Of a stretch of DNA of 64,000 nt, positions 24,058-48,182 are shown one piece after another. The DNA is taken from contig JARWIR010000003.1 in assembly GCA_029959085.1 (NCBI GenBank), forward strand, positions 35,885,505-35,949,504, given 5' to 3'. Below the pieces are notes generated by a model. The model did not search any database. It saw nothing but the letters and a program-made list of their open reading frames with translations, and was not told the DNA's origin. This DNA is from Nemophila menziesii. Lineage: Eukaryota; Streptophyta; Magnoliopsida; Boraginales; Hydrophyllaceae. A program made the position numbers and the translations under genes. Each line of letters opens with the position of its first letter. Position 1 is the stretch's first letter.

Positions 24058-26186
24058 TCAAAAATCACCCCATGAGTCTGAATCAGCGGGTGTAGGTGGC
24101 TCATCAAATCCAGATGTTGAATAGTCTCTATCATATGCAACTTTAGCATTACCAGCAGTACTCCTAGTCCCACTCCCAGTAGAAAACCCTAGCCCTTGAT
24201 TTCCACCATGATTGAAATGTCTACTTCCATTGTTAATTCTAGTTGATCCACCCTGACCAACACTGGTTGATTCAATCTGACCAAACTTCTCTCCGTTCAG
24301 CCCTAGAAAATTCCGGGTCACCCCCTCATTGTTCCACGAAAACTTGGTATAGCTTGATGGGACACCATTCATAGCTCCAAAATGGGTAATTGGCATTGTG
24401 GTGTCCGTTGGAGCAATGGTAGCAGGGGGGTGGTTTGGGATAGCAGTAAATTGATTCATGTAAGGTGATATTGCAGATGGATTCATCTGAATTGGTGGAG
24501 ATGGAGTTGAATTTTGAAAGAGAGATGGAGAGCCTGAGATATATCCCTGGTTCAAGCTAGGGTTAGGGTTAGGGTTGGTATCATGTGTTTGATCATAAGT
24601 GGCGAAAGTATAGTCAATTGGAAGCTGGTGGTGGAGGTGGTGAGCATTTTCATAGTAGGAAAAGCTTGGTGGTGGATTTTCAGGGAACTGGGTGAAAGGT
24701 GGGATATTGGTAGGTTGATTTGGTAAAGTTGTTAAACCCGAGTTGGCTGACAATCTAGCACCCTCTTCAGCTAACGCCTCACAAAAACCTCGATGGTTCA
24801 CAAAACTATCTTTCCTGTCAATAGAAATAGTTTAATATTATTTACATTATATCATTGTAAATAAATATATATAGAGAGTACACAATTTCAATCTTGGTTT
24901 TTACTATAATACATCATATTAATAAACGTTGTGATTTACCTTTGTAGTTTTCGGTCGGTTCTAAATTAAAAGACGACATGTAAAACTTTATGTTAATCGT
25001 ACTTCAATTTTTTCTTTATCACTTGGTAGTTCGAGATAAGTCTTAAACAACACCCAATAAGATGCTTAGTTTTTGTCAAACCGTGACGTTGTTCATCTAT
25101 TAATTAATTCAAAATTGTTATCCCGCCTTTATTACCAACGACCCCACTTCAAGTAATAAATTTTTTTTTGATTTTTTTTAATTTTTTTTCATAAACACAA
25201 AAACATTTTTAAATAAACTAAAATAATAATATTATGTGCGTAAGTACGTTTTGGACATGAATGAAGGGTGAAAACCGAAAAAAAGAATCAATTCACATAA
25301 ATAAAAAAAATTAAATACTAAATTTTATATTTTTGGCAGGATGATCAAGAAAGGATTAATTCACAGTAGCTTAAGATTTCATCGGCTTTCATGATGGATG
25401 ATATTAAAAATTTCATAGAATTTCCAAACATGAAATACTTAAACCGCTCTAAATGTGAAGTTGGGTATAAAACATATACAAAACTAAAACTCCCTTGCAT
25501 GCAATTCCTATAACTTCAATTAAAGATGACAGAAAGGGAAAAATTACCTGGCGAATTCAAGTCCGCAGTCGCATGTATACTGCCTTGATCCGCAGGTCTT
25601 TAGATGTGCCTTGAGATCCGAATGGACTGCATATGCTTTCGGGCATCTGTCGCATCGCCATTTTTTTTCCCCATGTTTTCTGCAAAAGTGTTTTTTAATG
25701 CCTGTCAGATCCCCCAAAGCTCTAGCTGGATCGTGATGCACGCAAGAGGGTATAGGGCATACGAAGACTTTTTTCTTGTTCTCGGGGGATTTTTGTTTCA
25801 ATTTATAGGGCAAACTGTGCCCTCTTCGGTGAAGCTGTAAATTCTGATCTCGTTGAAAGCCTTTGTTGCAAATGTCGCAGATATACCTGTTTGTAGTCAT
25901 CAAGCTCACTGGCGTAAGTGCTATGACCTCAACGTCCGTCAAGTCTGCATATACATATAAAGAGTGACGTCAAGAGTTAATTCACACTAAAAACTATACA
26001 AAGAGACTGAGAGAGAGCTAGGTTACCGGGATGTGCAGGTGGGCCCCTTTTTTTTCTAATTCTCTGGGGAACTTGTTGTGGCGACTGCTGTGCCGGAGGT
26101 GGCGGCGGCGGCTGAGTTGTAAACATTTGGACCATCGAACTGACACTGGAAAGGGAGTCAGAAGGAGAGATTGCATTGGCATACAT
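24058..26186 (-). CDS. IDD: INDETERMINATE DOMAIN (IDD) zinc-finger transcription factor, intact, 437 aa
   Basis: Three minus-strand exons join in frame: 26186-26027, 25944-25548 and 24814-24058. A basic stretch RIRKKRG (42-48) precedes the fingers and may be a nuclear signal. The ID domain has four fingers: C76, C79, H92, H96; C116, C121, H139, H144; C151, C154, H167, C171; and C178, C180, H193, C197. The second C2HC finger is completed only by exon 3. Family hallmarks CNKGFQRDQNLQLHRRGH, ALGDLTGIKKHFCRKHGE and FCEALAEEGARLS are present. A C-terminal TRNFLGL (352-358) matches the conserved IDD TRDFLG motif. Some usual residues are changed, for example LPYKLKQ for LPWKLKQ, so it is a divergent member. 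IDD proteins are nuclear regulators of development, often partners of GRAS proteins; its targets are unknown. Exons 1 and 2 lie in copy A of the 10.4-kb duplication, and exon 3 is single. Confidence 0.92.
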
Positions 26187-29100
26187 GTTGCTCAGATTTG
26201 CTCAGATGTATGTGTCTGATACATGAAATATTCTGTTTACCTTGAATTTATAACCATTATGGAGACGATAGCATTAATTTCAGCAGGTGAATTTGCCCCT
26301 TAATTTGGGCAACTACATTCACACAGTCAATCGGCTGTCGTAGAAATATTCAAGCTTATGTAAGCTTGACTTGTATTCAATGTGTGTTGAAATTAATGGG
26401 GAAAAAATAAGAATTTCAAGACATTTACGAATCAATATTTTCTAATTTTCCTTTGAGCCCAGAAAATAAATAAGATGTTAATATATTCTTTCCCTAGTTT
26501 AGACACTTCTGACTATATATCTAATAATTATCTAGCTATGGGTGTGTGTAGGTCTATCTATATACGAGTCGAAAAGGAAGGGGGCTGAGTATACGAGGAC
26601 ATTATCAATTAGTTGACAATGATGTATATAGGATGTTATGATTACAATCAGACTAAAGAAAAAGGGTCTGCTATAACATGTGGAATTTTCAAAATTATAA
26701 TTAATAATAAAGGCCAATAAAGAAAAGCTTTCAATTTAAAGATTTTTAAGTAATCAGTTTCTTAGAATAACATATTTAAATTTTATAGTACCTTGTAAAA
26801 TTATTAAGTAAATGTAATGTAGGTAAATGTGTGAAATTCTTTATATAAAAAATTATAAGTTTCTATATCATTTTGTAAGATTCCTGGCTACTTACATATT
26901 TGAATAGTTTTAGGATAAAATCTTAAATTTAATTAACATACATGATGATATCAACTCTCGTATCAAAGTTGTGTTGACCCGCAAAACATTCAATTCACAC
27001 CGTCTTTCGAGGCTTTGGTCGTTCGTCTTAATATCAATTCGTGTAACCCTTACGATCAAAACCGTATTCACACTAGAAAAAACTGAATAAATGCATTTTT
27101 CTCCTCAATAAACTCTGAATTTTAATATTAATAAAATTACAAAATACTCGTCAAACACTAATTTTTTTTATTAGGATAACATAACTTCAAACTCATTATT
27201 AATAACACTAGGTCTTACTTAGTACCTTTTCCACTAATATTATTATTGTTCTTTTTAACGGGGTTTTTTAAATTCAGATGTGTACACTTTGTGTATTCTT
27301 TTTAATCCTGTTATAAAACACCCAAATTACAAGAGAACCTTGATTTGAATAAAATGGTTATATTAAAAGACGGGGTTAGAAAAAAAGATAAGCTCGAAAA
27401 GCTTAATAAAGCCTTAAAGACAAAGTGCTTTAAAAATTAGTCTCTTCAAACCCTTTATCTAGAACCCCCGTATGGTATCATTATTGCAAAATCATTGACT
27501 TAAAATTATATTGCAAACATAAACACCAAAGACAAAAAGAGTTTTCATTGGTTTAGATTACATTCAAAAGTTAATGGATTTTTAACTCGTATTGGCTATT
27601 TAATTTATTAGTCTCAAAGTCTTTAATTCCCTTCTTGATCTAGAGGGCTCATTTTGACTAAGAAAAATACAAGTGTTTCATATGATATTTTATCAATTAT
27701 TAAATTGTTTAAATTTTGTTCAAACTCGTGTGTATATATAAAAATTGGAAAATTCTTCCATCAAATATTGGAGTAATACATATACCTCATGTTTTAAACT
27801 TACAAAAGTAACTAACTAATTAATCTATAATAACACGTGTTTTGTTATAATAATTAATGGATGTGATGTGATGTGAATTTTTTTATTTTGATAATTAGTT
27901 TAATTATTGACACCAAAAGTCTTTCAAACCAATTTCTATTGCAATTGTAGTTGAACATCCATTCTGACCAAATAATTAAAAAATAAAATAATTTTGTACA
28001 ACCATGGCTAACTTGAATTTCAAGTGAGCCGAAATACTCCCTAATGAATAAAAAGAAAATGGAAAATTCAAATGAAATAATTAAAAGGTTATTATGTTTG
28101 ATAATATTATTCAACAGTATTTCATCTGAATTCATTGATTAATATCTAGAATATTTGCAACTTTCTTGATTTAATTATTATAAATGTATTTGTATTACAT
28201 TTCTATCTCTTTCGTCTATACCATTGTTATCACATCATCTTGTATTACGTATCCATCTCTTTCATATATGCCATTGATATCTCATCATCAAGTAGATCAT
28301 GAAACCCCACCCCGGGATCTTACGTGAAATTCTCTTTTCTTTGCTTTATTACTACTACTTTTGCATATTCATAACCTGAATCCAAAGTCATTTCTATATG
28401 AATTGAATATCTGCTTTGACCAAGTATATATCCTATTGAACTATTATAAAACCTAAATATTAGCTGAGATAAGGGTTGCAAATTGAAATAAAAAAATATT
28501 TTGATCTTAGAACTAATAAAGTGGAGTCCAAAATTAACTATCATTGAATGTATAATACCTATTACAGTCAATAAATGAAAAAAGGAAATTGGAAAAATAG
28601 CCCATAAGATCCTTATCTTTTAACACCATACTCGAATCTGAATATGAAATGATTTTTAAAGATAAAAATGTAATCTGAATATGAAATAATTTATAAAAAC
28701 AAACATTTTAAACCCTATTTTTTTAGTTTATATCTTGATTAATATTTAGTTAATCTTGTAGCATTATTAATTTTTAATTTTTTTGTCAAATCAAATCACA
28801 TTTGGAAGAATCAATCTAAATATAATGTCATTTCCGATAACAATATTATAGTCATATACTACCTTCAATTCTTTATAAATAATTAATTTTGTAATGTTTT
28901 TACCACCTGAGCTACAGGCATCCACCCACCCATTATCTTGGTCCGAAGAAGACGAGTTTGAACGTGAAAAACTCTTCATAAAATGAAAAGAAAAGTTTAT
29001 TAAGGCTTTGAACATCTCGAGCACGAGATGATTCCTGAATATGTTTTTGAGTTTTCTTCTCCAGATGAAACTAGGAGATCTTGAATAGATTTTAGGTGTA

Positions 29101-29320
29101 ATGAGAAAATAAATCTACTTTTTTTTTTGACGAATCTAACAGTAAGAAATCACAACGAGTCCTCATGGTTTCATAGATCAAGATTCTACAATAAAATATT
29201 TTACAATTAATTATTCATTTGATTTTTTCTGTACAACATATATGGAAGGTGAGTTTAAACTATATAATGAATGGTGGTGTGCAAAAAGATTGAGTATATC
29301 TCTCAATCAAACCCACTTAG
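26187..29320 (-). promoter_or_regulatory. IDD upstream region, copy A
   Basis: About 3.1 kb of AT-rich DNA between the IDD start codon and the CACTA-2 left end. No gene is seen; short minus-strand frames (28135-27854, 28571-28320, 29024-28791) have no recognisable domain. A perfect hairpin TCAAGCTTA-TG-TAAGCTTGA lies at 26350-26369, about 165 bp before the ATG and probably in the promoter or leader. TGTATTACxTxTCTATCTCTTTCxT-like phrases repeat twice near 28187-28270. Confidence 0.5.
26350..26369. repeat. Perfect 9-bp inverted repeat upstream of IDD
   Basis: TCAAGCTTA and TAAGCTTGA separated by TG. The same hairpin occurs in copy B at 36780-36799. Its function is unknown. Confidence 0.7.
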
Positions 29321-29323
29321 CAC

Positions 29324-29775
29324 CACTACAGCAGGTCGCTGATCTACCCACGACAACTGTCGTCGGTAAAAAGGCCAATTTCGTCGGTAAATATGTTTAC
29401 CGACGACAACTCGTCGGTAAGCTGTCGTCCCTAGAAGTTGGTCGGTAAAATCGCCCTTGCCGACGACGGTTTTGGCTCCTCGTCGATAACCCAACATCTT
29501 TTACCGACGACTCTCGCCTCGTCGGTAAACATTAGCATACCGACAACGGCCTGGCTGGTCGCCGGTAAGACGCACTACTTTACCGACAACCATTGTTGTC
29601 GGTAAATAAATTAATTACCGACAACACGGTCGTCGGTATCCTAGTATTTAAATCTTTTTTTTTGATTTTAAATAACTTGCCGACAACTTTAATTACTTGA
29701 ATGTCGTCGGCAAATGTTATTTTTTATTTTTTTTTAAAAATCTTTACCGACGACATTCTTGACATGAATGTCGTC
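29324..29775. repeat. CACTA-2 left subterminal array, copy A
   Basis: About twenty copies of TACCGACGAC or GTCGTCGGTAAA, full or partial, occur in both orientations between the terminus and about 29775. They are followed by a long T-rich stretch. In En/Spm elements such repeats are TnpA-binding sites. Confidence 0.8.
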
Positions 29776-30275
29776 GGTATTGTGATTATTTATTTTTTTT
29801 AATTTTTTTTTTAAATTTAATTTTTTTTAATTTTTTTTAATTTAATTTTTTTTAATTTTAATTTTTATTTAAATTGGTTTTTCGATTTTTTATAAATTAA
29901 TATACTATGAAATTTTGAATATAAATAGAAATCATGGATTATATTCATAAAAGATAAATAAACCCGGGTAGTCAAACCCCGGGCAATAAAGTCAAACCCC
30001 GAGCAATAAAGTCAAAATATTACATAAAAACTTAATAAAAGTAAAAAATATAAACTTAAATAAAATAAAAGTCTTAAACATAATAAAATGAAAGTCAATC
30101 ACGGGCCCCATAGATCTTCTCCTCGATCACTATCTTCATCTTCATCTTCTTCTTCAGCGGAGACCGGAGAGAGACCGTTTTTTTCACGAGATTCATTGAG
30201 GCCTTTGAGCAACTTCGTCAAAAAATCATCGGACCTAGAGGAGCTCGGTGGAGCATCGTCATCCGGCATAGGAGG

Positions 30276-31663
30276 TTATCCTTGGACTGCGCGGAGCTCG
30301 TTCATCCCGTCGAATATCCGCTGTAACTTTCTCGCGTTCTTCTTTGCGGTCTCGTCCGAAACAGGCGGCTTCGGGTCCTTCTTTTTCTTGAAGACAGCTC
30401 CGATCGAAGGGATCCAGTGTCTACTCTTAGCCGGTTTCATCACCTCCTGAACCGTCTCCTTCAACGCTCCTATCTGCTCCTCCACTGGAACATCCTCAGC
30501 CGATTGGGACCCCGTCTCGATAACCCGCTCCTTAAGTTTCTCCCGATAAACTCCCTGTAGTAAAATTTCAAATAAATAATTAATAAAACTAACAAAGAAA
30601 TAAATTTAAAGTTAAATAAAAACTTACACTAGCCTGCTCCCATCTATCATCGACCCATTTGCCTTTCGCCCCATCATAGCCCAAGTACTCGAAGTATCCG
30701 ACCATCTGTGGAAGTGGGACCTCCTCTTGGGTCTGCTCGTCTATATAGCTCAGGGGCTCCTTCGTATTAACCTTCAGCTTACCCTATAAAATATACATAA
30801 AAAATTATAATTATTAAAAAATTAAATTAAATAACTAATAAATTTTATTTTTACTTTAATAAATTATACCTCGATAATCTCGGGGTGGGTCTGGGTTTGG
30901 TTCCGAGAACCTGACTTGTTCGGCTTCTTCTGGTTCTGCCGATTCTTCTTATTAATCTCCGACTGAGCCTGTTACAATTCAACGTAAAAAATAAATAAAC
31001 AATAATTTAATAATAAAATAATTAAATTAAGATTTTACCTTCTTATTCGGGTTATGAAACATCTCAAGGGTCAGCTTCCAATCCTCGGGAAGCACATCAG
31101 GTGGACACTCATCCGAATCGCCATAATCGGCCTTCAAGTCATACTTCCACCGTCTGTAAGCAGCGGATTGAGACTGCGTCAGCTTCCCGCTAATAAAGTT
31201 TCAATCTCGGCGGGCCCTCCACTCCTCGAGGTTGAAGAACTCCTCGAGTTTTCCGAGGATCGTGGTCTTTAGTGCAGGCGACACAGCACTCCACGAGGGG
31301 TAGTAGGGCGGGACTGTTTCTCGAACCGCGAGACCCATCACTTGGGCCACGTGTTTCCCATATTCTCCGAATGGGTTCCACGTGTCGTCGAGGATACAAA
31401 AATCTACCGGAAGGGGCCCACCTAGCTTCTCCTTGGCATCGTTGGCGGTTTTGAGAGTCGAGACATTTCGGGGTCTCCTCTTTCGCTTAACTGTTTAAGA
31501 AAAGTATATTAATTAATTTAGTAATTTATATTAATTGAAAAATATAAATTAATTTATATTTACCAGGCGGCTGATTACAATCGTTCAAGTTCGGGGGTTG
31601 ATTCGGGTTCGGATCTTCACCGTTCCCGTCACCCCGGTGGTAGTTAGGCATCACTGCGGCCAT
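30276..31663 (-). pseudogene. CACTA-2 TnpA-like gene, copy A (one premature stop)
   Basis: Five minus-strand exons with GT-AG borders join in phase: 31663-31564, 31490-31039, 30968-30870, 30783-30628 and 30554-30276. Together they specify 362 codons. The start reads MAAVMPNYHRGDGNGEDPN. Typical features of plant Ptta/En/Spm TnpA-like proteins follow: WNPFGEYGKHVAQVMG, WKLTLEMFHNPNKK, AQSEINKKNRQNQKK and a C-terminal EEQIGALKETVQEVM coiled-coil-like segment. One in-frame TGA in exon 2 interrupts EEWRARRD and NFISGKLTQ; the frame stays open on both sides. The same TGA is in copy B, so it is older than the duplication. TnpA binds subterminal repeats and helps transposition; full-length protein cannot be made without read-through. 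Confidence 0.85.
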
Positions 31664-31679
31664 CTATAACTGAAATAAA

Positions 31680-32640
31680 ATTAATAAATTAGTTTTTTTT
31701 ACTATAAATTGTATTTTAGACCTTTTTTTATTAAAAATTACAAAAAACACACATATAAATTTTAAAAAAAATATATTTTTCATAGGTTTTAAATTGTATA
31801 TTATAAATTGCGTTTTAGTCCTCGTATTTTCAAAAATTACTAAAATACCCTAAAGTCCATAATATTTTTTTTGAAAGTTTTTTAATTTGTCATTTAGTCC
31901 TTATATCATATATATTTACATAAAATACCTAATTTGTCATTTAGTCCCTAAATTGCATTTTTAGTCCATAGAGTTTTCATATTTGCATAAAATACCCTAA
32001 ATTCTTTAAAAATGTAAAGTTTTTAAAATTGCATTTTATTCCCTAAATTGCATTTTTAGTCCCTAGAGTTTTCATATTTGCATAAAATACACTAAATTTC
32101 ATCAACATTGTCAAGTGTTTAACATACAAAAATTAACAAACAATCCTAAAACTTCTAAACATCAAAAATCATTACATCAAAATACATCAAAATACAAACC
32201 CTAATTTTTCTAAAAATTAACCAAAAAATCACGTTACATGGTATATTTAACAACAAAATACATATTCAGAATCTAAAATCTATCACAAAATCACGGAATT
32301 AACAAGAATTCCAATACAACATTAAAAAAAAATTTATAAATCAATTCGAAAATTAAAAAAAAATAGGTTTAGTCACGGATTTGTGGTACCTGTTACGTGG
32401 AGATTATGTTGAACATATCCAGCAATCCATGCCAAAAAAGAGTAGAGGAAAAACAAAAACAAAAAAATAGTTAGGATTTGATTTAGAAAATTGAAAAAAA
32501 TTTGAAGAAATGATTAAGTTTTGGCATGGAATCACTTACATTTGATGTTATAGGGGTGTTGGAATGGCTCGGAACAACTCATTCTTCCTCGGAATCGACT
32601 TTTTTGAGAGTGTTTTGATGTGTTTTTGTTACAGAAATGA
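31680..32640. other. Non-coding interval upstream of TnpA, copy A
   Basis: AT-rich DNA with diverged repeats of the type TTTAGTCCCTA...AATTGCATTTT and TATTTGCATAAAATAC. No gene is seen. The same kind of repeats (TAGTCC...TTTAAAATTG) occurs at the matching place in CACTA-3 (52440-52558 and 58956-59460), so the two elements share this layout. It may be an intron or leader of TnpA. Confidence 0.5.
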
Positions 32641-32659
32641 AGCTCGGTAGGGTTTAATA

Positions 32660-33000
32660 GATAAATTGTTTATCGACGACACGCCAAGTCGTCGGTAAAC
32701 AGGTCAAACACGTCGCTAAACGTGACACGCGTCAAACAGTCGTACGCACGACTGTTGCGTGTCCTGGTTTACCGACGAGACATTTTCGCAAGTCGTCGGT
32801 AAACCCTTGGGCGGGAAAAATGAACCGCCCATTTTGGCCAATAAAATTTGGAATTTCGTTTACCGACGACTCTCTATATTGAATATCGTCGTTCAAAATG
32901 TACCGACAACACTCTTGAATAGAATATCGTCGCTAAAAGTTTACCAACGACATTCAATTCAAGAATGTTGTCGGTAAACCTTCATTTTCGTCGGTAAACC
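32660..33000. repeat. CACTA-2 internal repeat array, copy A
   Basis: A third cluster of TTTACCGACGAC and GTCGTCGGTAAA in both orientations, lying inside the element about 1 kb upstream of the TnpA start codon. It uses the same motif as the two terminal arrays. By position it could let TnpA act on its own promoter; that is an inference. Confidence 0.75.
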
Positions 33001-33050
33001 TTTTTTTTTTCTTTAATTTTTTTTCCTTATTTATTTTCTTTTTTTATTCT

Positions 33051-34637
33051 GTTTAGTCAACAGTTAGGGTCAAACTTGAGTGTATGAGGTGTTTAGTCAA
33101 CAGTTACGGTCAAACTTGAGTGTTCGGGGTGTTTAGTCAACAGTTAAGGTCAAATGTTAGTGTTAGGGGTGTTTAGTCAATAGTTAGGGTCAAACTTGAG
33201 TGTTTGAAGTGTTTTAATCAACAGTTAGGGTCAAATGTTAGTGTTTGAGGTGTTTAGTCAACAGTTAGGGTCAAACTTGAGTGTATGAGGTGTTTAGTCA
33301 ACAGTTACGGTCAAACTTGAGTGTTCGGGGTGTTTAGTCAACAGTTAAGGTCAAATGTTAGTGTTTGAGGTGTTTAGTCAACAGTTAGGGTCAAACGTTA
33401 GTGTTTGAGGTGTTTAGTCAATAGTTAGGGTCAAACTTGAGTGATAGGGGTGTTTAGTCAACAGTTAGGGTCAAACTTGAGTGATAGGGGTGTTTAGTCA
33501 ACAGTTAGGGTCAAACTTGAGTGTTAGGGGTGTTTAGTCAATAGTTAGGGTCAAACTTGAGTGATAGGGGTGTTTAGTCAACATTTAGGGTCAAATGTTA
33601 GTGTTTGATGTGTTTAGTCAACAGTTAGGGTCAAACTTGAGTGATAGGTGTGTTTAGTCAACAGTTAGGGTCAAACTTGAGTGATAGGGGTGTTTAGTCA
33701 ACAGTTAGGGTCAAACTTGAGTGTTAGGGGTGTTTAGTCAATAGTTAGGGTCAAACTTGAGTGTTTGAAGTGTTTTAATCAACAGTTAGGGTCAAATGTT
33801 AGTGTTTGAGGTGTTTAGTCAACAGTTAGGGTCAAACTTGAGTGTATGAGGTGTTTAGGCAACAGTTACGGTCAAACTTGAGTGTTCGTGGGTGTTTAGT
33901 CAACAGTTAAGGTCAAATGTTAGTGTTTGAGGTGTTTAGTCAATAGTTAGGGTCAAACGTTAGTGTTTGAGGTGTTTAGTCAGTAGTTAGGGTCAAACTT
34001 GAGTGATAGGGGTGTTTAGTCAACAGTTAGGGTCAAACTTGAGTGATAGGGGTGTTTAGTCAACAGTTAGGGTCAAACTTGAGTGTTAGGGGTGTTTAGT
34101 CAATAGTTAGGGTCAAACTTGAGTGATAGGGGTGTTTAGTCAACATTTAGGGTCAAATGTTAGTGTTTGATGTGTTTAGTCAACAGTTAGGGTCAAACTT
34201 GAGTGATAGGGGTTTTTAGTCAACAGTTAGGGTCAAACTTGAGTGATAGGGGTGTTTAGTCAACAGTTAGGGTCAAACTTGAGTGTTAGGGGTGTTTAGT
34301 CAATAGTTAGGGTCAAACTTGAGTGTTTGAAGTGTTTTAATCAACAGTTAGGGTCAAATGTTAGTGTTTGAGGTGTTTAGTCAACAGTTAGGGTCAAACT
34401 TGAGTGTTTGAGGTGTTTAGTCGACAGTTAGGGTCAAACGTGAGTGATAGGGGTGTTTAGTCAACAGTTAGGGTCAAACTTGAGTGTTTGAGGTGTTTAG
34501 TTAACAGTTAGGGTCAAACTTGAGTGTTTGAGGTGTTTAGTCAACAGTTAGGGTCAAACGTGAGTGATAGGGGCGTTTAGTCAACAGTTAGGGTCAAACT
34601 TGAGTGTATGAGGTGTTTAGTCAACAGTTAGGGTCAA
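33051..34637. repeat. 40-bp minisatellite with two W-box cores per unit, copy A
   Basis: About 40 tandem units of 40 bp. A typical unit starts TGTTTAGTCAACAGTTAGGG and continues TCAAACTTGAGTGATAGGGG. On the minus strand almost every unit contains TTGACC and TTGACT (WRKY W-box cores) and TAACTG (a MYB-type core). Variant units (GTATGAGG, GTTCGGGG, GTTTGAAG, ATGTTAGTGTTTG) recur in the same order, showing higher-order amplification. It lies between the end of TnpD and the TnpA promoter side. Confidence 0.95.
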
Positions 34638-34733
34638 TCAATATCAGAATGCACTAAGACTAAAAAAAATACAAAATATCCTAATCAGTTTCATATCCAC
34701 TAATATCTATAGGTTCATCATCGCTATTAACCT

Positions 34734-36616
34734 CTATAGGTTCTTCTTCATCACCATATTCGTCCCACGTGTCGTCTTCGATTCCTGGTTTTCATCAATA
34801 ACCATTTCAAAAGCCATCTCAATACGAAAATGAGCGGGGTCAATCTCGATCTCCTCGGTAGTTGCCAAGTTCTCCGGTTCGGAAACCGTCTCAGTGTTAC
34901 ACAAAGGTATACTAATGGTCTCGTTGTTTGTAGATAGTGATTCCAAACCCCATAACTCGGGACTCCATCCGTGACGATCATTTATTTCCCAAACGGCTTT
35001 CCAACCCTTCATTGATTTCTTCGCACTAATCTCGTCAATGTAGAATACTTTCTTGGCTTGCGATGCTAAAATGTATGGTTCGTCTTCCCACTCAAAGTTT
35101 GTCTTGTTAATAAAGGTTACCCCATGTTCTGTCCTCGATTCAGCCATTTTGTACCATTTACAAACGAATAAGACAACTGAACACCCTTTAGTGTAATTAA
35201 CCTCCAATATTTTCACTAATTCTCCATAACATGGTCTATCTTTCCTGTCAATAGAAATAGTTTAATATTATTTACATTATATCATTGTAAATAAATATAT
35301 ATAGAGAGTACACAATTTCAATCTTGGTTTTTACTATAATACATCATATTAATAAACGTTGTGATTTACCTTTGTAGTTTTCGGTCGGTTCTAAATTAAA
35401 AGACGACATGTAAAACTTTATGTTAATCGTACTTCAATTTTTTCTTTATCACTTGGTAGTTCGAGATAAGTCTTAAACAACACCCAATAAGATGCTTAGT
35501 TTTTGTCAAACCGTGACGTTGTTCATCTATTAATTAATTCAAAATTGTTATCCCGCCTTTATTACCAACGACCCCACTTCAAGTAATAAATTTTTTTTTG
35601 ATTTTTTTTAATTTTTTTTCATAAACACAAAAACATTTTTAAATAAACTAAAATAATAATATTATGTGCGTAAGTACGTTTTGGACATGAATGAAGGGTG
35701 AAAACCGAAAAAAAGAATCAATTCACATAAATAAAAAAAATTAAATACTAAATTTTATATTTTTGGCAGGATGATCAAGAAAGGATTAATTCACAGTAGC
35801 TTAAGATTTCATCGGCTTTCATGATGGATGATATTAAAAATTTCATAGAATTTCCAAACATGAAATACTTAAACCGCTCTAAATGTGAAGTTGGGTATAA
35901 AACATATACAAAACTAAAACTCCCTTGCATGCAATTCCTATAACTTCAATTAAAGATGACAGAAAGGGAAAAATTACCTGGCGAATTCAAGTCCGCAGTC
36001 GCATGTATACTGCCTTGATCCGCAGGTCTTTAGATGTGCCTTGAGATCCGAATGGACTGCATATGCTTTCGGGCATCTGTCGCATCGCCATTTTTTTTCC
36101 CCATGTTTTCTGCAAAAGTGTTTTTTAATGCCTGTCAGATCCCCCAAAGCTCTAGCTGGATCGTGATGCACGCAAGAGGGTATAGGGCATACGAAGACTT
36201 TTTTCTTGTTCTCGGGGGATTTTTGTTTCAATTTATAGGGCAAACTGTGCCCTCTTCGGTGAAGCTGTAAATTCTGATCTCGTTGAAAGCCTTTGTTGCA
36301 AATGTCGCAGATATACCTGTTTGTAGTCATCAAGCTCACTGGCGTAAGTGCTATGACCTCAACGTCCGTCAAGTCTGCATATACATATAAAGAGTGACGT
36401 CAAGAGTTAATTCACACTAAAAACTATACAAAGAGACTGAGAGAGAGCTAGGTTACCGGGATGTGCAGGTGGGCCCCTTTTTTTTCTAATTCTCTGGGGA
36501 ACTTGTTGTGGCGACTGCTGTGCCGGAGGTGGCGGCGGCGGCTGAGTTGTAAACATTTGGACCATCGAACTGACACTGGAAAGGGAGTCAGAAGGAGAGA
36601 TTGCATTGGCATACAT
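34734..36616 (-). CDS. Chimeric IDD-DUF4216 gene made by the duplication junction, 355 aa
   Basis: Exons 1 and 2 are IDD copy B: 36616-36457 and 36374-35978. Intron 2 and its AG acceptor are kept. Exon 3 starts at 35244 with the first nine bases of IDD exon 3, then crosses the CTATCTT breakpoint and runs in frame to a stop at 34734. The join reads EFARKD then RPCYGELVKIL. Residues 1-188 are IDD: basic motif, fingers 1-3, and the Cys pair of finger 4, whose His and Cys are lost. Residues 189-355 are CACTA TnpD: a nearly whole DUF4216 domain (YGELVKILEVNY, LFVCKWYKM, FEWEDEPYILASQAKKVFYI) and an acidic tail. The last residues are out of the ancestral TnpD frame. The 3.1 kb upstream of the IDD start codon is duplicated with it, so it should be transcribed like IDD. 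Expression is not shown; an assembly artefact is possible. Confidence 0.8.
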
Positions 36617-39600
36617 GTTGCTCAGATTTGCTCAGATGTATGTGTCTGATACATGAAATATTCTGTTTACCTTGAATTTATAACCATTATGGAGACGATA
36701 GCATTAATTTCAGCAGGTGAATTTGCCCCTTAATTTGGGCAACTACATTCACACAGTCAATCGGCTGTCGTAGAAATATTCAAGCTTATGTAAGCTTGAC
36801 TTGTATTCAATGTGTGTTGAAATTAATGGGGAAAAAATAAGAATTTCAAGACATTTACGAATCAATATTTTCTAATTTTCCTTTGAGCCCAGAAAATAAA
36901 TAAGATGTTAATATATTCTTTCCCTAGTTTAGACACTTCTGACTATATATCTAATAATTATCTAGCTATGGGTGTGTGTAGGTCTATCTATATACGAGTC
37001 GAAAAGGAAGGGGGCTGAGTATACGAGGACATTATCAATTAGTTGACAATGATGTATATAGGATGTTATGATTACAATCAGACTAAAGAAAAAGGGTCTG
37101 CTATAACATGTGGAATTTTCAAAATTATAATTAATAATAAAGGCCAATAAAGAAAAGCTTTCAATTTAAAGATTTTTAAGTAATCAGTTTCTTAGAATAA
37201 CATATTTAAATTTTATAGTACCTTGTAAAATTATTAAGTAAATGTAATGTAGGTAAATGTGTGAAATTCTTTATATAAAAAATTATAAGTTTCTATATCA
37301 TTTTGTAAGATTCCTGGCTACTTACATATTTGAATAGTTTTAGGATAAAATCTTAAATTTAATTAACATACATGATGATATCAACTCTCGTATCAAAGTT
37401 GTGTTGACCCGCAAAACATTCAATTCACACCGTCTTTCGAGGCTTTGGTCGTTCGTCTTAATATCAATTCGTGTAACCCTTACGATCAAAACCGTATTCA
37501 CACTAGAAAAAACTGAATAAATGCATTTTTCTCCTCAATAAACTCTGAATTTTAATATTAATAAAATTACAAAATACTCGTCAAACACTAATTTTTTTTA
37601 TTAGGATAACATAACTTCAAACTCATTATTAATAACACTAGGTCTTACTTAGTACCTTTTCCACTAATATTATTATTGTTCTTTTTAACGGGGTTTTTTA
37701 AATTCAGATGTGTACACTTTGTGTATTCTTTTTAATCCTGTTATAAAACACCCAAATTACAAGAGAACCTTGATTTGAATAAAATGGTTATATTAAAAGA
37801 CGGGGTTAGAAAAAAAGATAAGCTCGAAAAGCTTAATAAAGCCTTAAAGACAAAGTGCTTTAAAAATTAGTCTCTTCAAACCCTTTATCTAGAACCCCCG
37901 TATGGTATCATTATTGCAAAATCATTGACTTAAAATTATATTGCAAACATAAACACCAAAGACAAAAAGAGTTTTCATTGGTTTAGATTACATTCAAAAG
38001 TTAATGGATTTTTAACTCGTATTGGCTATTTAATTTATTAGTCTCAAAGTCTTTAATTCCCTTCTTGATCTAGAGGGCTCATTTTGACTAAGAAAAATAC
38101 AAGTGTTTCATATGATATTTTATCAATTATTAAATTGTTTAAATTTTGTTCAAACTCGTGTGTATATATAAAAATTGGAAAATTCTTCCATCAAATATTG
38201 GAGTAATACATATACCTCATGTTTTAAACTTACAAAAGTAACTAACTAATTAATCTATAATAACACGTGTTTTGTTATAATAATTAATGGATGTGATGTG
38301 ATGTGAATTTTTTTATTTTGATAATTAGTTTAATTATTGACACCAAAAGTCTTTCAAACCAATTTCTATTGCAATTGTAGTTGAACATCCATTCTGACCA
38401 AATAATTAAAAAATAAAATAATTTTGTACAACCATGGCTAACTTGAATTTCAAGTGAGCCGAAATACTCCCTAATGAATAAAAAGAAAATGGAAAATTCA
38501 AATGAAATAATTAAAAGGTTATTATGTTTGATAATATTATTCAACAGTATTTCATCTGAATTCATTGATTAATATCTAGAATATTTGCAACTTTCTTGAT
38601 TTAATTATTATAAATGTATTTGTATTACATTTCTATCTCTTTCGTCTATACCATTGTTATCACATCATCTTGTATTACGTATCCATCTCTTTCATATATG
38701 CCATTGATATCTCATCATCAAGTAGATCATGAAACCCCACCCCGGGATCTTACGTGAAATTCTCTTTTCTTTGCTTTATTACTACTACTTTTGCATATTC
38801 ATAACCTGAATCCAAAGTCATTTCTATATGAATTGAATATCTGCTTTGACCAAGTATATATCCTATTGAACTATTATAAAACCTAAATATTAGCTGAGAT
38901 AAGGGTTGCAAATTGAAATAAAAAAATATTTTGATCTTAGAACTAATAAAGTGGAGTCCAAAATTAACTATCATTGAATGTATAATACCTATTACAGTCA
39001 ATAAATGAAAAAAGGAAATTGGAAAAATAGCCCATAAGATCCTTATCTTTTAACACCATACTCGAATCTGAATATGAAATGATTTTTAAAGATAAAAATG
39101 TAATCTGAATATGAAATAATTTATAAAAACAAACATTTTAAACCCTATTTTTTTAGTTTATATCTTGATTAATATTTAGTTAATCTTGTAGCATTATTAA
39201 TTTTTAATTTTTTTGTCAAATCAAATCACATTTGGAAGAATCAATCTAAATATAATGTCATTTCCGATAACAATATTATAGTCATATACTACCTTCAATT
39301 CTTTATAAATAATTAATTTTGTAATGTTTTTACCACCTGAGCTACAGGCATCCACCCACCCATTATCTTGGTCCGAAGAAGACGAGTTTGAACGTGAAAA
39401 ACTCTTCATAAAATGAAAAGAAAAGTTTATTAAGGCTTTGAACATCTCGAGCACGAGATGATTCCTGAATATGTTTTTGAGTTTTCTTCTCCAGATGAAA
39501 CTAGGAGATCTTGAATAGATTTTAGGTGTAATGAGAAAATAAATCTACTTTTTTTTTTGACGAATCTAACAGTAAGAAATCACAACGAGTCCTCATGGTT

Positions 39601-39750
39601 TCATAGATCAAGATTCTACAATAAAATATTTTACAATTAATTATTCATTTGATTTTTTCTGTACAACATATATGGAAGGTGAGTTTAAACTATATAATGA
39701 ATGGTGGTGTGCAAAAAGATTGAGTATATCTCTCAATCAAACCCACTTAG
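36617..39750 (-). promoter_or_regulatory. IDD upstream region, copy B (drives the chimera)
   Basis: Same sequence as 26187-29320, with no difference noticed. It ends at the left terminus of the complete CACTA-2. No gene is seen. If copy A drives IDD, this copy carries the same proximal elements. Confidence 0.5.
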
Positions 39751-39753
39751 CAC

Positions 39754-40206
39754 CACTACAGCAGGTCGCTGATCTACCCACGACAACTGTCGTCGGTAAA
39801 AAGGCCAATTTCGTCGGTAAATATGTTTACCGACGACAACTCGTCGGTAAGCTGTCGTCCCTAGAAGTTGGTCGGTAAAATCGCCCTTGCCGACGACGGT
39901 TTTGGCTCCTCGTCGATAACCCAACATCTTTTACCGACGACTCTCGCCTCGTCGGTAAACATTAGCATACCGACAACGGCCTGGCTGGTCGCCGGTAAGA
40001 CGCACTACTTTACCGACAACCATTGTTGTCGGTAAATAAATTAATTACCGACAACACGGTCGTCGGTATCCTAGTATTTAAATCTTTTTTTTTGATTTTA
40101 AATAACTTGCCGACAACTTTAATTACTTGAATGTCGTCGGCAAATGTTATTTTTTATTTTTTTTTAAAAATCTTTACCGACGACATTCTTGACATGAATG
40201 TCGTCG
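39754..40206. repeat. CACTA-2 left subterminal array, copy B
   Basis: Same array of TACCGACGAC and GTCGTCGGTAAA as at 29324-29775. No difference from copy A was noticed. Confidence 0.8.
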
Positions 40207-40706
40207 GTATTGTGATTATTTATTTTTTTTAATTTTTTTTTTAAATTTAATTTTTTTTAATTTTTTTTAATTTAATTTTTTTTAATTTTAATTTTTATTT
40301 AAATTGGTTTTTCGATTTTTTATAAATTAATATACTATGAAATTTTGAATATAAATAGAAATCATGGATTATATTCATAAAAAGATAAATAAACCCGGGT
40401 AGTCAAACCCCGGGCAATAAAGTCAAACCCCGAGCAATAAAGTCAAAATATTACATAAAAACTTAATAAAAGTAAAAAATATAAACTTAAATAAAATAAA
40501 AGTCTTAAACATAATAAAATGAAAGTCAATCACGGGCCCCATAGATCTTCTCCTCGATCACTATCTTCATCTTCATCTTCTTCTTCAGCGGAGACCGGAG
40601 AGAGACCGTTTTTTTCACGAGATTCATTGAGGCCTTTGAGCAACTTCGTCAAAAAATCATCGGACCTAGAGGAGCTCGGTGGAGCATCGTCATCCGGCAT
40701 AGGAGG

Positions 40707-42094
40707 TTATCCTTGGACTGCGCGGAGCTCGTTCATCCCGTCGAATATCCGCTGTAACTTTCTCGCGTTCTTCTTTGCGGTCTCGTCCGAAACAGGCGGC
40801 TTCGGGTCCTTCTTTTTCTTGAAGACAGCTCCGATCGAAGGGATCCAGTGTCTACTCTTAGCCGGTTTCATCACCTCCTGAACCGTCTCCTTCAACGCTC
40901 CTATCTGCTCCTCCACTGGAACATCCTCAGCCGATTGGGACCCCGTCTCGATAACCCGCTCCTTAAGTTTCTCCCGATAAACTCCCTGTAGTAAAATTTC
41001 AAATAAATAATTAATAAAACTAACAAAGAAATAAATTTAAAGTTAAATAAAAACTTACACTAGCCTGCTCCCATCTATCATCGACCCATTTGCCTTTCGC
41101 CCCATCATAGCCCAAGTACTCGAAGTATCCGACCATCTGTGGAAGTGGGACCTCCTCTTGGGTCTGCTCGTCTATATAGCTCAGGGGCTCCTTCGTATTA
41201 ACCTTCAGCTTACCCTATAAAATATACATAAAAAATTATAATTATTAAAAAATTAAATTAAATAACTAATAAATTTTATTTTTACTTTAATAAATTATAC
41301 CTCGATAATCTCGGGGTGGGTCTGGGTTTGGTTCCGAGAACCTGACTTGTTCGGCTTCTTCTGGTTCTGCCGATTCTTCTTATTAATCTCCGACTGAGCC
41401 TGTTACAATTCAACGTAAAAAATAAATAAACAATAATTTAATAATAAAATAATTAAATTAAGATTTTACCTTCTTATTCGGGTTATGAAACATCTCAAGG
41501 GTCAGCTTCCAATCCTCGGGAAGCACATCAGGTGGACACTCATCCGAATCGCCATAATCGGCCTTCAAGTCATACTTCCACCGTCTGTAAGCAGCGGATT
41601 GAGACTGCGTCAGCTTCCCGCTAATAAAGTTTCAATCTCGGCGGGCCCTCCACTCCTCGAGGTTGAAGAACTCCTCGAGTTTTCCGAGGATCGTGGTCTT
41701 TAGTGCAGGCGACACAGCACTCCACGAGGGGTAGTAGGGCGGGACTGTTTCTCGAACCGCGAGACCCATCACTTGGGCCACGTGTTTCCCATATTCTCCG
41801 AATGGGTTCCACGTGTCGTCGAGGATACAAAAATCTACCGGAAGGGGCCCACCTAGCTTCTCCTTGGCATCGTTGGCGGTTTTGAGAGTCGAGACATTTC
41901 GGGGTCTCCTCTTTCGCTTAACTGTTTAAGAAAAGTATATTAATTAATTTAGTAATTTATATTAATTGAAAAATATAAATTAATTTATATTTACCAGGCG
42001 GCTGATTACAATCGTTCAAGTTCGGGGGTTGATTCGGGTTCGGATCTTCACCGTTCCCGTCACCCCGGTGGTAGTTAGGCATCACTGCGGCCAT
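40707..42094 (-). pseudogene. CACTA-2 TnpA-like gene, copy B (same premature stop)
   Basis: Exons 42094-41995, 41921-41470, 41399-41301, 41214-41059 and 40985-40707 correspond one to one with copy A, and I noticed no coding difference. The shared in-frame TGA in exon 2 means both copies are equally disabled. In this copy the gene sits in an element with both termini. Confidence 0.85.
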
Positions 42095-43090
42095 CTATAA
42101 CTGAAATAAAATTAATAAATTAGTTTTTTTTACTATAAATTGTATTTTAGACCTTTTTTTATTAAAAATTACAAAAAACACACATATAAATTTTAAAAAA
42201 AATATATTTTTCATAGGTTTTAAATTGTATATTATAAATTGCGTTTTAGTCCTCGTATTTTCAAAAATTACTAAAATACCCTAAAGTCCATAATATTTTT
42301 TTTGAAAGTTTTTTAATTTGTCATTTAGTCCTTATATCATATATATTTACATAAAATACCTAATTTGTCATTTAGTCCCTAAATTGCATTTTTAGTCCAT
42401 AGAGTTTTCATATTTGCATAAAATACCCTAAATTCTTTAAAAATGTAAAGTTTTTAAAATTGCATTTTATTCCCTAAATTGCATTTTTAGTCCCTAGAGT
42501 TTTCATATTTGCATAAAATACACTAAATTTCATCAACATTGTCAAGTGTTTAACATACAAAAATTAACAAACAATCCTAAAACTTCTAAACATCAAAAAT
42601 CATTACATCAAAATACATCAAAATACAAACCCTAATTTTTCTAAAAATTAACCAAAAAATCACGTTACATGGTATATTTAACAACAAAATACATATTCAG
42701 AATCTAAAATCTATCACAAAATCACGGAATTAACAAGAATTCCAATACAACATTAAAAAAAAATTTATAAATCAATTCGAAAATTAAAAAAAAATAGGTT
42801 TAGTCACGGATTTGTGGTACCTGTTACGTGGAGATTATGTTGAACATATCCAGCAATCCATGCCAAAAAAGAGTAGAGGAAAAACAAAAACAAAAAAATA
42901 GTTAGGATTTGATTTAGAAAATTGAAAAAAATTTGAAGAAATGATTAAGTTTTGGCATGGAATCACTTACATTTGATGTTATAGGGGTGTTGGAATGGCT
43001 CGGAACAACTCATTCTTCCTCGGAATCGACTTTTTTGAGAGTGTTTTGATGTGTTTTTGTTACAGAAATGAAGCTCGGTAGGGTTTAATA

Positions 43091-43431
43091 GATAAATTGT
43101 TTATCGACGACACGCCAAGTCGTCGGTAAACAGGTCAAACACGTCGCTAAACGTGACACGCGTCAAACAGTCGTACGCACGACTGTTGCGTGTCCTGGTT
43201 TACCGACGAGACATTTTCGCAAGTCGTCGGTAAACCCTTGGGCGGGAAAAATGAACCGCCCATTTTGGCCAATAAAATTTGGAATTTCGTTTACCGACGA
43301 CTCTCTATATTGAATATCGTCGTTCAAAATGTACCGACAACACTCTTGAATAGAATATCGTCGCTAAAAGTTTACCAACGACATTCAATTCAAGAATGTT
43401 GTCGGTAAACCTTCATTTTCGTCGGTAAACC
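43091..43431. repeat. CACTA-2 internal repeat array, copy B
   Basis: Copy of the 32660-33000 cluster of ACCGACGAC repeats upstream of TnpA. Confidence 0.75.
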
Positions 43432-43481
43432 TTTTTTTTTTCTTTAATTTTTTTTCCTTATTTATTTTCTTTTTTTATTCT

Positions 43482-45068
43482 GTTTAGTCAACAGTTAGGG
43501 TCAAACTTGAGTGTATGAGGTGTTTAGTCAACAGTTACGGTCAAACTTGAGTGTTCGGGGTGTTTAGTCAACAGTTAAGGTCAAATGTTAGTGTTAGGGG
43601 TGTTTAGTCAATAGTTAGGGTCAAACTTGAGTGTTTGAAGTGTTTTAATCAACAGTTAGGGTCAAATGTTAGTGTTTGAGGTGTTTAGTCAACAGTTAGG
43701 GTCAAACTTGAGTGTATGAGGTGTTTAGTCAACAGTTACGGTCAAACTTGAGTGTTCGGGGTGTTTAGTCAACAGTTAAGGTCAAATGTTAGTGTTTGAG
43801 GTGTTTAGTCAACAGTTAGGGTCAAACGTTAGTGTTTGAGGTGTTTAGTCAATAGTTAGGGTCAAACTTGAGTGATAGGGGTGTTTAGTCAACAGTTAGG
43901 GTCAAACTTGAGTGATAGGGGTGTTTAGTCAACAGTTAGGGTCAAACTTGAGTGTTAGGGGTGTTTAGTCAATAGTTAGGGTCAAACTTGAGTGATAGGG
44001 GTGTTTAGTCAACATTTAGGGTCAAATGTTAGTGTTTGATGTGTTTAGTCAACAGTTAGGGTCAAACTTGAGTGATAGGTGTGTTTAGTCAACAGTTAGG
44101 GTCAAACTTGAGTGATAGGGGTGTTTAGTCAACAGTTAGGGTCAAACTTGAGTGTTAGGGGTGTTTAGTCAATAGTTAGGGTCAAACTTGAGTGTTTGAA
44201 GTGTTTTAATCAACAGTTAGGGTCAAATGTTAGTGTTTGAGGTGTTTAGTCAACAGTTAGGGTCAAACTTGAGTGTATGAGGTGTTTAGGCAATAGTTAC
44301 GGTCAAACTTGAGTGTTCGTGGGTGTTTAGTCAACAGTTAAGGTCAAATGTTAGTGTTTGAGGTGTTTAGTCAATAGTTAGGGTCAAACGTTAGTGTTTG
44401 AGGTGTTTAGTCAGTAGTTAGGGTCAAACTTGAGTGATAGGGGTGTTTAGTCAACAGTTAGGGTCAAACTTGAGTGATAGGGGTGTTTAGTCAACAGTTA
44501 GGGTCAAACTTGAGTGTTAGGGGTGTTTAGTCAATAGTTAGGGTCAAACTTGAGTGATAGGGGTGTTTAGTCAACATTTAGGGTCAAATGTTAGTGTTTG
44601 ATGTGTTTAGTCAACAGTTAGGGTCAAACTTGAGTGATAGGGGTTTTTAGTCAACAGTTAGGGTCAAACTTGAGTGATAGGGGTGTTTAGTCAACAGTTA
44701 GGGTCAAACTTGAGTGTTAGGGGTGTTTAGTCAATAGTTAGGGTCAAACTTGAGTGTTTGAAGTGTTTTAATCAACAGTTAGGGTCAAATGTTAGTGTTT
44801 GAGGTGTTTAGTCAACAGTTAGGGTCAAACTTGAGTGTTTGAGGTGTTTAGTCGACAGTTAGGGTCAAACGTGAGTGATAGGGGTGTTTAGTCAACAGTT
44901 AGGGTCAAACTTGAGTGTTTGAGGTGTTTAGTTAACAGTTAGGGTCAAACTTGAGTGTTTGAGGTGTTTAGTCAACAGTTAGGGTCAAACGTGAGTGATA
45001 GGGGCGTTTAGTCAACAGTTAGGGTCAAACTTGAGTGTATGAGGTGTTTAGTCAACAGTTAGGGTCAA
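43482..45068. repeat. 40-bp minisatellite with two W-box cores per unit, copy B
   Basis: Unit for unit the same as 33051-34637. One substitution (T44294 for C33863) was seen and no change in unit number. Confidence 0.95.
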
Positions 45069-45164
45069 TCAATATCAAAATGCACTAAGACTAAAAAAAA
45101 TACAAAATATCCTAATCAGTTTCATATCCACTAATATCTATAGGTTCATCATCGCTATTAACCT

Positions 45165-46168
45165 CTATAGGTTCTTCTTCATCACCATATTCGTCCCACG
45201 TGTCGTCTTCGATTCCTGGTTTTCATCAATAACCATTTCAAAAGCCATCTCAATACGAAAATGAGCGGGGTCAATCTCGATCTCCTCGGTAGTTGCCAAG
45301 TTCTCCGGTTCGGAAACCGTCTCAGTGTTACACAAAGGTATACTAATGGTCTCGTTGTTTGTAGATAGTGATTCCAAACCCCATAACTCGGGACTCCATC
45401 CGTGACGATCATTTATTTCCCAAACGGCTTTCCAACCCTTCATTGATTTCTTCGCACTAATCTCGTCAATGTAGAATACTTTCTTGGCTTGCGATGCTAA
45501 AATGTATGGTTCGTCTTCCCACTCAAAGTTTGTCGTGTTAATAAAGGTTACCCCATGTTCTGTCCTCGATTCAGCCATTTTGTACCATTTACAAACGAAT
45601 AAGACAACTGAACACCCTTTAGTGTAATTAACCTCCAATATTTTCACTAATTCTCCATAACATGGTCTATCTTCGTACGTGGTACAAACTCCGTAATCCG
45701 GATATATATATATTTATGGCAATGAAGTTCAATGAACTCATCGCTTTACAACCCGGATATAATTCTGTCTCCAATTCATTAAACAGTTTTTCGAAACTAC
45801 TTGGAATTTCTGCGTCTCTCATCTCGGTGTCACCCTGATGACCGCCAACATCGTAACTGTGTCTCACATCGTCATAAACCTCGGCAATTTCATTAACTAT
45901 ATTCGGAATAGGGTTTTCTTCGGGAACGACCGGCTGCTCACCGTGTTTTATCCAAACCCGATACGACTTCATAACCCCTTCATTATAAAGGTGGTTCGTA
46001 ACCGTCCGAGAGGCTAATCGACGATTATTTACAATAGTTACACGGGCAATAAATAAGATCTTTATATTTCGAATGTTGTTTTGCATATGCGATAAAATCC
46101 AAAACCCCAACAAGATAGTTAGGATCGAATAAATTCGTAGCATCCATCCAACTCTTATCCAAAGCCAT
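45165..46168 (-). pseudogene. CACTA-2 TnpD with the TNP2 core deleted
   Basis: From an ATG at 46168 the frame reads MALDKSWMDATNLFDPNYLV and reaches CPCNYC, the N-terminal transposase-associated domain. A frameshift near 46030 follows; the next frame continues NRRLASRTVTNHLYNEGVM. The text runs to FEKLFNELETELYPGCKAMS, the point where the TNP2 catalytic domain normally begins. It then jumps across a short TA run (about 45703-45713) to PDYGVCTTYEDRPCYGELVK, the start of DUF4216, in another frame. TNP2 and DUF4218 are both missing. DUF4216 spans about 45650-45390 and an acidic tail ends at 45165. No active transposase can be made. Confidence 0.85.
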
Positions 46169-46535
46169 CTCTTTACAACAATTTTAGATAACAAGACAAC
46201 TACATTCATATGAAAATAAAATAAATAATTATTACAACCCAATTGATAAAATGAAAAAAAATTACAACACAATGAATATAAATAACACAAATTACAAACC
46301 AATGGCTCGAATATAATTACAAACCAATAAATAAATAAATAAATAAAATTATATCATAATAAATAAATAAATAAAATTACAACACAATAAATATATAAAC
46401 AATTTCACATAAATAAATACACAAATACAAAAATATATGAAACATAATATATGAAATAAATGAATGTATGCATGATTTATACACAATATATAACAAGACA
46501 ATCAAAAAATATACAAAATAATAACCTATAGCAAC

Positions 46536-47468
46536 TAGGGATGGCAACGGATCGGATTATTGCAAAAAAAATTCAAAACCATGTCCATATCCATTTAATT
46601 TATCAAAAACCAAACCCTAACGGATTTAACCATCGGACTTACTTTTCAAAACCATATCCGAATAATTCGGATTCGGTTTTTTAAACGGTTTTTCGGATTT
46701 TAACCATAACCCGGCTCGCAAGGCGTCCCTCTCGCAGTAGGATTCCTAACATCGTCTCGCTCTTGTGACATGCCAAACTATAACTCTCTAAATATATTGA
46801 AAATATTGAAACAAGATCAGAAATACATGAAAAATCTCCAATATATAAAATATTTTATTGATCTTTAATTAAATAACGATTTTGTTACTTCTTTTGTTAA
46901 TTCTAATATTTAGAATTTAGTTTTGAGATATGAAAATACTTTTTTATCTCTATTACTATAAAATATACAAAAATAGATGATAATAAACGGGTTTTTGGTT
47001 ATTTGGTTTTATTTTTATCTAAAATTTTAACCATCGGTTACATTTTTCAAAACCATAACCTAACGGTTTTATCATGGTTTCATAATCTATTTTTAATCGG
47101 TTCAAGTTTTCATCGATTTTTATTTTAAACCATAACCATTTCCATCCTTATCTATAGTTGAGTTGAGACTTTTAGCCTTTTGATAATTAAAAATCAAAAA
47201 AAATATAAGAAAGATGGACTTCAAAATATAAAAATACGTGGATTTTAGCCTTTAGTAGATAAAATAAAATCAGATATATATATATATATAATGGATTTTC
47301 GGTTTTTCGGGTTTTTTTAATCTAAAACCATAACCTAACGGTTTTAACCATCAGTTTCACTTTTTAAAACCAAACCCTAACGGATTTAACCACGGTTACA
47401 TAATCGGTTTTTATTCGGTTCGGTAATCCGTCGGTTTCGGATTAAAATCGTGACCACTGCCATCCCTA
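46536..47468. mobile_element. Non-autonomous hAT element, 933 bp, inside CACTA-2
   Basis: Ends are TAGGGATGGCAACGG (left) and CCACTGCCATCCCTA (right), an inverted repeat with two mismatches. The 8-bp direct repeat ATAGCAAC flanks it (46528-46535 and 47469-47476), the size typical of hAT transposons. The interior is AT-rich with many CGGTTT and AACCATAACC phrases near both ends, and no transposase frame. It lies upstream of the TnpD start codon of CACTA-2, outside the duplicated segment. Confidence 0.9.
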
Positions 47469-48179: not shown

Positions 48180-48182
48180 CAC

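Follow-up and report, generated by a model that had tools for sequence, protein, structure and literature searches.

In-frame fusion of an IDD zinc-finger gene to a CACTA transposase domain by a recent tandem duplication in Nemophila menziesii

A head-to-tail tandem duplication in the plant Nemophila menziesii joins exon 3 of an IDD zinc-finger gene to a CACTA transposon. The join lies in the window analyzed here, a stretch of 64,000 nucleotides (assembly GCA_029959085.1, contig JARWIR010000003.1, forward-strand positions 35,885,505 to 35,949,504). We regard it as probable that a single break-repair event, using 7 bp of microhomology, left an in-frame IDD-DUF4216 gene between transposon termini, and that its protein would bind IDD targets without GRAS partners. 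Our strongest result is that the anatomy of a capture event, made by one microhomology join, can be seen here and dated.

When the window is aligned with itself, copy A (24806..35242) and copy B (35236..45673) of the 10,430-bp duplication form a single match of 10,438 columns with 99.96% identity, 3 mismatches and one gap. Copy A holds the IDD gene from the start of exon 3 upwards, the region upstream of the gene and the 3' part of the CACTA element. The two breakpoints have in common the 7-bp sequence CTATCTT (35236..35242). A shared run of at least 7 bases is found for 0.1% of random breakpoint pairs in the window, which corresponds to a chance of about 0.001.

The copies are separated by three substitutions and one 1-bp indel. 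At 35104/45535, copy B has the base of the transposon family (10 of 10 relatives), and copy A is derived. Copy A is also derived at 34647/45078, where the base of copy B is present in all nine informative relatives, which align loosely there. The third substitution lies at 33863/44294, and the indel is mixed across relatives (five like copy B, four like copy A and one uninformative). At a mutation rate of about 7e-9 per site per year, three substitutions would place the duplication at roughly 20,000 years ago, with a wide error.

All four differences fall in the transposon part of the duplication, which calls for caution because repeats are likelier to hold assembly errors. Nearly identical copies would also result if two haplotypes, or contigs that overlap, had been placed one after the other in the assembly, and one of the breakpoints does lie in a high-copy transposon. 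However, the window is free of N, the contig is 89 Mb long, and the join is a precise one at 7 bp of microhomology, with no gap. Such a join, we reason, is not predicted by overlap errors, and an assembly artefact appears improbable.

The fused gene is read from the minus strand. Its exon 1 (36457..36616, with the start at 36616) and exon 2 (35978..36374, encoding zinc fingers 1 to 3 and the start of finger 4) are IDD sequence, whereas exon 3 (34734..35244) consists of nine bases of IDD exon 3 (35244-35236), then DUF4216 and a stop at 34734. The introns are GT/AG, as in the parent gene, and the frame is open through the 355 amino acids of the predicted protein. Exons, introns and reading frame therefore agree with a preliminary description of this DNA, which had proposed an in-frame fusion that passes from the first nine bases of exon 3 into codons of the transposon gene tnpD. 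The same description called the DUF4216 domain nearly whole; by Pfam it is in fact complete (residues 199-270, profile positions 1-73 of 73), and ten residues separate it from the last IDD residue, Asp188. The attribution to TnpD codons requires qualification. The join is in frame, but the last ~15 residues of the chimera are out of the native frame as a result of a frameshift in the window's CACTA element, and TnpD in that element is a remnant from which ~2.7 kb is deleted. The derived base at 35104 changes a threonine to lysine. As had also been proposed, the start codon and 3.1 kb of upstream DNA were duplicated too (36617..39753, minus strand; 3,137 bp, a length measured on the identical copy A).

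In Pfam searches, the chimera retains finger 1 (PF00096, the general C2H2 model) and complete fingers 2 and 3 (PF22996 and PF22995). Finger 4 (PF22992) is reduced to profile positions 1-14 of 42, below the cut-off, and the SHR-binding motif of this finger is lost with it. Thus, the chimera shares its N-terminus and fingers 1 to 3 with BIRD/IDD transcription factors of the IDD12-like kind, but has DUF4216 where those proteins have the greater part of finger 4, the SHR motif and a C-terminal region. To our knowledge, DUF4216 has no known role. AlphaFold gave no usable model of the DUF4216 exon (mean pLDDT of 35). Protein searches for DUF4216 homologues and for known fusions returned none among the 48 and 125 proteins scored, under length limits that exclude full TnpD proteins and leave this negative with little weight, and a literature search found no described fusion of DUF4216 with a zinc finger or of an IDD protein with a transposase.

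The parent of the fused gene lies on the minus strand, with exon 1 at 26027..26186 and exon 2 at 25548..25944 in copy A, and exon 3, encoding the rest of finger 4 and the C-terminal region, at 24058..24814. The claim that this gene remains whole in copy A is borne out by its open frame, GT/AG introns and 437 encoded residues, which include finger 4 and the C-terminal region. Pfam detects the four-finger ID domain of IDD/BIRD proteins in the parent. The closest database proteins are mostly named IDD12-like (best 120 of 5,174), and the top match among these 120 is from Actinidia, which is 48% identical across 82% of the query.

The genome (1.517 Gb, 361 contigs) was searched with the fused gene, and 40 of 1,988 candidates were scored. 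Eight of these matches carry IDD sequence, and the other 32, one of which is copy B, carry the DUF4216 piece only. The eight comprise the chimera, the parent, a gene at C200:35969042, on the contig that holds the window, and a tandem array of five at C2:29.65-29.78 Mb. All seven whole IDD genes, by which we mean the close ones recovered with the fused gene, given that more distant IDD genes would escape this list, have GT/AG introns and reading frames that stay open over 434-437 residues. When the parent is compared with each of the other six, dN/dS is 0.20-0.25 for the finger part and 0.38-0.42 for the whole coding region; in comparisons of the C200 paralogue with the C2 copies it is 0.29-0.32 for the finger part. 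The low values for the finger part indicate purifying selection on the fingers in the family of the parent. Within the C2 array, whose five copies differ by few substitutions, dN/dS scatters from 0.38 to 2.1, and some C2 pairs have values >1 in the C-terminal part.

The transposon partner is a non-autonomous CACTA element of 8,426 bp on the minus strand (39754..48179), whose termini read CACTACAGCAGG and CTGTAGTAGTG and which has CAC at each flank. Its CACTA termini, 3-bp duplication and TnpD-type domains place it in the CACTA superfamily. A fragment of the same element, lacking the 5' part, is present in copy A (29324..35235, minus strand). On the copy B side, one minus-strand open frame (45165..45713) holds a remnant of the TnpD 3' exon with DUF4216, and another (45667..46353) holds a TnpD 5' remnant with part of Transpos_assoc (profile positions 44-74 of 74). 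Pfam gave no match to Transposase_21 in these two remnant frames.

Ten related copies of the element were fetched, including the 5' side for six. Six of the 10 share the 3' end of the window's element, and four of the six copies with a 5' side have both ends with matching 3-bp flanks (TGT, GCT, ATT and TAA). Compared with the six, the element in the window is without 2.6-2.9 kb of TnpD, a roughly 2.7-kb internal deletion. In one relative (L026), a TnpD frame that reaches into the missing stretch does contain Transposase_21. In all ten other copies, the stretch that directly precedes the DUF4216 part is undeleted, and the frameshift near the end of TnpD is lacking in all ten, as judged by frame or by DNA. 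The deletion is marked by 17 bp of TA-rich filler (45700..45716, minus strand); for its origin, the window offers just 12-base partial matches besides the site itself.

Several other features of the window were observed. An array of a 40-bp minisatellite unit (about 40 copies) is present in copy A (33050..34637), about 100 bp downstream of the stop of the chimera, and in copy B (43481..45068). Each array contains 73 TTGAC[CT] motifs, where 200 base shuffles give 1.3 on average, and stretches of 9.6-9.9 kb around ten other copies of the family contain 9 to 84. We take TTGAC[CT] to be the W-box core recognized by WRKY proteins, and on motif counts of this kind the CACTA transposon may be a large WRKY-binding platform. 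The element also carries a nested, presumably hAT-like insertion of 933 bp (46536-47468), whose termini are TAGGGATGGC/GCCATCCCTA and whose 8-bp direct repeats are ATAGCAAC. Another TnpD fragment, from a different CACTA element, is found at 62404-62844, where a DUF4216-like stretch is 43% identical to the chimeric exon. At 52922-58703, on the minus strand, visual inspection suggests a non-LTR retrotransposon, with open frames that include stretches like a reverse transcriptase and a nuclease.

The order of events can be read from a paralogous block ~58.6-58.8 kb away, which derives from an older block duplication and is 75-87% identical by piece. In this block, the flanks of the element meet at a single CAC (...CCCACTTAG-CAC-TTTCTACAATT...; in a second reading, ...AATCAAACCCACTTAG-CAC-TTTCTACAATT...). 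The CACTA element thus inserted 3.1 kb upstream of the IDD gene, with CAC as the target duplication. The block is 82-85% identical to most of the region upstream of the chimera. Because the block has a single CAC and the tandem duplication repeats part of the element, the insertion came first and the tandem duplication later. The older duplication of the IDD locus pairs 20000-52000 with a stretch that extends to about 27.9 kb beyond the right end of the window.

The Pack-CACTA route of gene acquisition (Catoni et al. 2019), in the parts of PMC13317346 and PMC8903248 that describe it, involves two neighboring insertions with complementary terminal deletions. This route would leave a similar geometry of ends, with a 5'-truncated element beside a complete one and host DNA between them. 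However, the left termini at 29324 and 39754 lie in the same flanking DNA next to the same CAC, the whole 10.4 kb is repeated, and the host DNA between the elements duplicates the DNA to the left of the element in copy A. Two insertions would call for distinct target-site duplications at the two left termini, and the identities mean that one insertion was duplicated and that there were not two. Separate insertions were consequently rejected, and we judge the two-insertion route very improbable indeed.

What the single insertion and its duplication have produced is an outer unit of 18,856 bp (29324..48179), which has inverted CACTA termini, is flanked by CAC on the left (29321..29323) and on the right (48180..48182), and encloses the chimera together with its 3.1-kb upstream region. 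The left terminus comes from copy A and the right terminus from copy B. The position of one breakpoint within the element is what places the fused gene between the left terminus of copy A and the right terminus of copy B. The preliminary description had spoken of segmental duplication rather than transposon capture. The duplication is indeed segmental and recent, with three substitutions between its copies, but the opposition to capture does not hold, because the CACTA element provides one of the breakpoints and the fused gene was left between CACTA termini with matching CAC. As its anatomy is read here, the duplication is itself a capture event, made by one join and without transposition.

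The outer unit has much in common with Pack-CACTA elements. Inverted CACTA termini are present at both ends, the target-site duplication is of 3 bp (CAC on both sides and a single CAC when empty), and host coding sequence lies within while its parent lies elsewhere. Among the 40 matches that were scored, out of 1,988 candidates, the chimeric junction has no second copy; it occurs once, a moved copy of the fused gene is absent, and movement as a unit is thus not seen in this set. In addition, the inner terminus at 39754 is intact, and for this reason we call the outer unit a precursor and not a member of the Pack-CACTA group. A transposase may prefer the inner element, because this left terminus remains. 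The outer unit might be mobile if a full CACTA transposase acted on the outer termini.

Set against Pack-CACTA elements as the cited descriptions present them, the locus is alike in that sequence of a host gene lies between CACTA termini, the flanks are of 3 bp, and a truncated element sits beside a complete one. It is unlike them in that it arose from one insertion and one microhomology duplication and not from two insertions with complementary deletions, the inner terminus is present, the junction was found once among the 40 matches scored, and the parent is 10 kb away. The soybean CACTA element Tgm-Express, in the portion of PMC1947982 that concerns it, likewise carries host gene fragments and allows new exon combinations; here, by comparison, the parent, the empty site and the join are all visible. 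The matches listed by a literature search on macrotransposons and tandem duplication were all unrelated.

A candidate sequence of steps can be proposed for the join. A break would have occurred in the TnpD remnant beside the TA-rich deletion scar, the 7-bp microhomology would have annealed to the sister chromatid within IDD exon 3, and the gap would have been filled by copying that ran back through the element. Alternative transposition at the element termini was rejected, because both breakpoints are away from the termini. Scar and duplication breakpoint are 26 bp apart, which has a probability of ~0.6% by coincidence if positions are uniform. This proximity suggests a fragile site, and the putative link between scar and breakpoint draws on the ten fetched copies. 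The same product could come from one microhomology join if two breaks on sister chromatids were joined unequally, with no template copied. End joining alone leaves the position of the scar unexplained, although a fragile TA-rich site could cover both, and we give this variant a real but less than even chance.

Template copying has a parallel in animals. The animal study PMC8277862, in the passages on mechanism, favors breaks inside an element that are repaired with nearby sequence at microhomologies. Its single-copy Pack-TIRs, attributed to gap filling without transposition, resemble the present locus in the internal breakpoint, the filler taken in cis, the join at microhomology and an insertion that preceded capture. 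The differences, as far as that account extends, are that ours is a plant CACTA element, that the copied stretch includes the end of the element and so gives a tandem duplication, and that a transposase exon is fused in frame. The locus fits the gap-filling idea in a plant CACTA element, where microhomology, cis filler and an internal breakpoint would point to template switching.

Predictions for the protein follow from the position of the join. According to the structural review PMC5873383, fingers 1 to 3 bind DNA, the helix of finger 4 carries the SHR-binding motif R(K/R)DxxITHxAFCD, and DELLA and SCL3 bind the C-terminal region; PMC10298287 assigns DNA binding to fingers 2 and 3, and PMC7349898 assigns SHR contact to fingers 3 and 4. 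In the chimera, the join comes directly after RKD of the motif, and the IDD C-terminal region is gone. The protein is therefore predicted to be a DNA binder without either known GRAS-docking region. Two observations temper this prediction. Finger 3, which also touches SHR, is retained, and the motif of the parent, RKDSFVNHRGFCE, differs at four of the positions that R(K/R)DxxITHxAFCD specifies, which may have made SHR binding by the parent weak even before the fusion. If the duplicated IDD upstream region drove transcription of the chimera, its product would compete with the parent for DNA and would presumably be a weak dominant negative. The fullest version of our proposal, in which a single join without transposition created both an 18.9-kb Pack-CACTA precursor and an IDD repressor that is blind to GRAS proteins and competes with the parent, is offered tentatively and is doubtful as a whole.

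The duplication could be real and the fused gene nevertheless a neutral by-product that is silenced or degraded and will decay. This possibility, for which we see an even chance, rivals the proposed action and not the proposed origin. The fused exon comes from a CACTA family whose DUF4216 stretch is present in the genome in at least 31 other, nearly identical copies. Such repetition would be expected to attract small-RNA silencing, which would be the most likely brake on the gene. The donor element carries a frameshift and a deletion. Any join keeps the frame in 1/3 of cases, and 225 of 7,426 sense-orientation join points in the element (3.0%) would add at least 100 in-frame residues; an open frame of this length is thus uncommon, yet not beyond chance. 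With only three substitutions, moreover, there has been no time for selection to show. Against decay, the fused gene has the same upstream region, splice sites and start codon as its parent, which belongs to a family under purifying selection, and no stop has arisen before 34734. The birth of a gene, which the preliminary description saw in this locus, is possible, and a silenced by-product is about as likely; the latter is compatible with the origin that we propose.

How plant terminal-inverted-repeat transposons acquire host genes is an unsettled question. In the discussion of mechanism in PMC13317346, paired neighboring insertions are the route shown so far, and an undiscovered mechanism is allowed for, framed for unlinked genes. 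The present locus involves a linked gene, and it suggests a capture route that takes a single insertion and a single join. The parent gene, the empty site, the inserted element and the join that made the capture can all be seen together, and because the event is young (three substitutions in 10.4 kb), the join is unblurred. The position of the join, inside the SHR-binding motif of finger 4, gives a sharp prediction at the level of the protein. The locus likely shows how a transposon can trap a neighboring gene in one step, and it makes this simple capture route testable through tandem duplications that have exactly one breakpoint in a terminal-inverted-repeat element.
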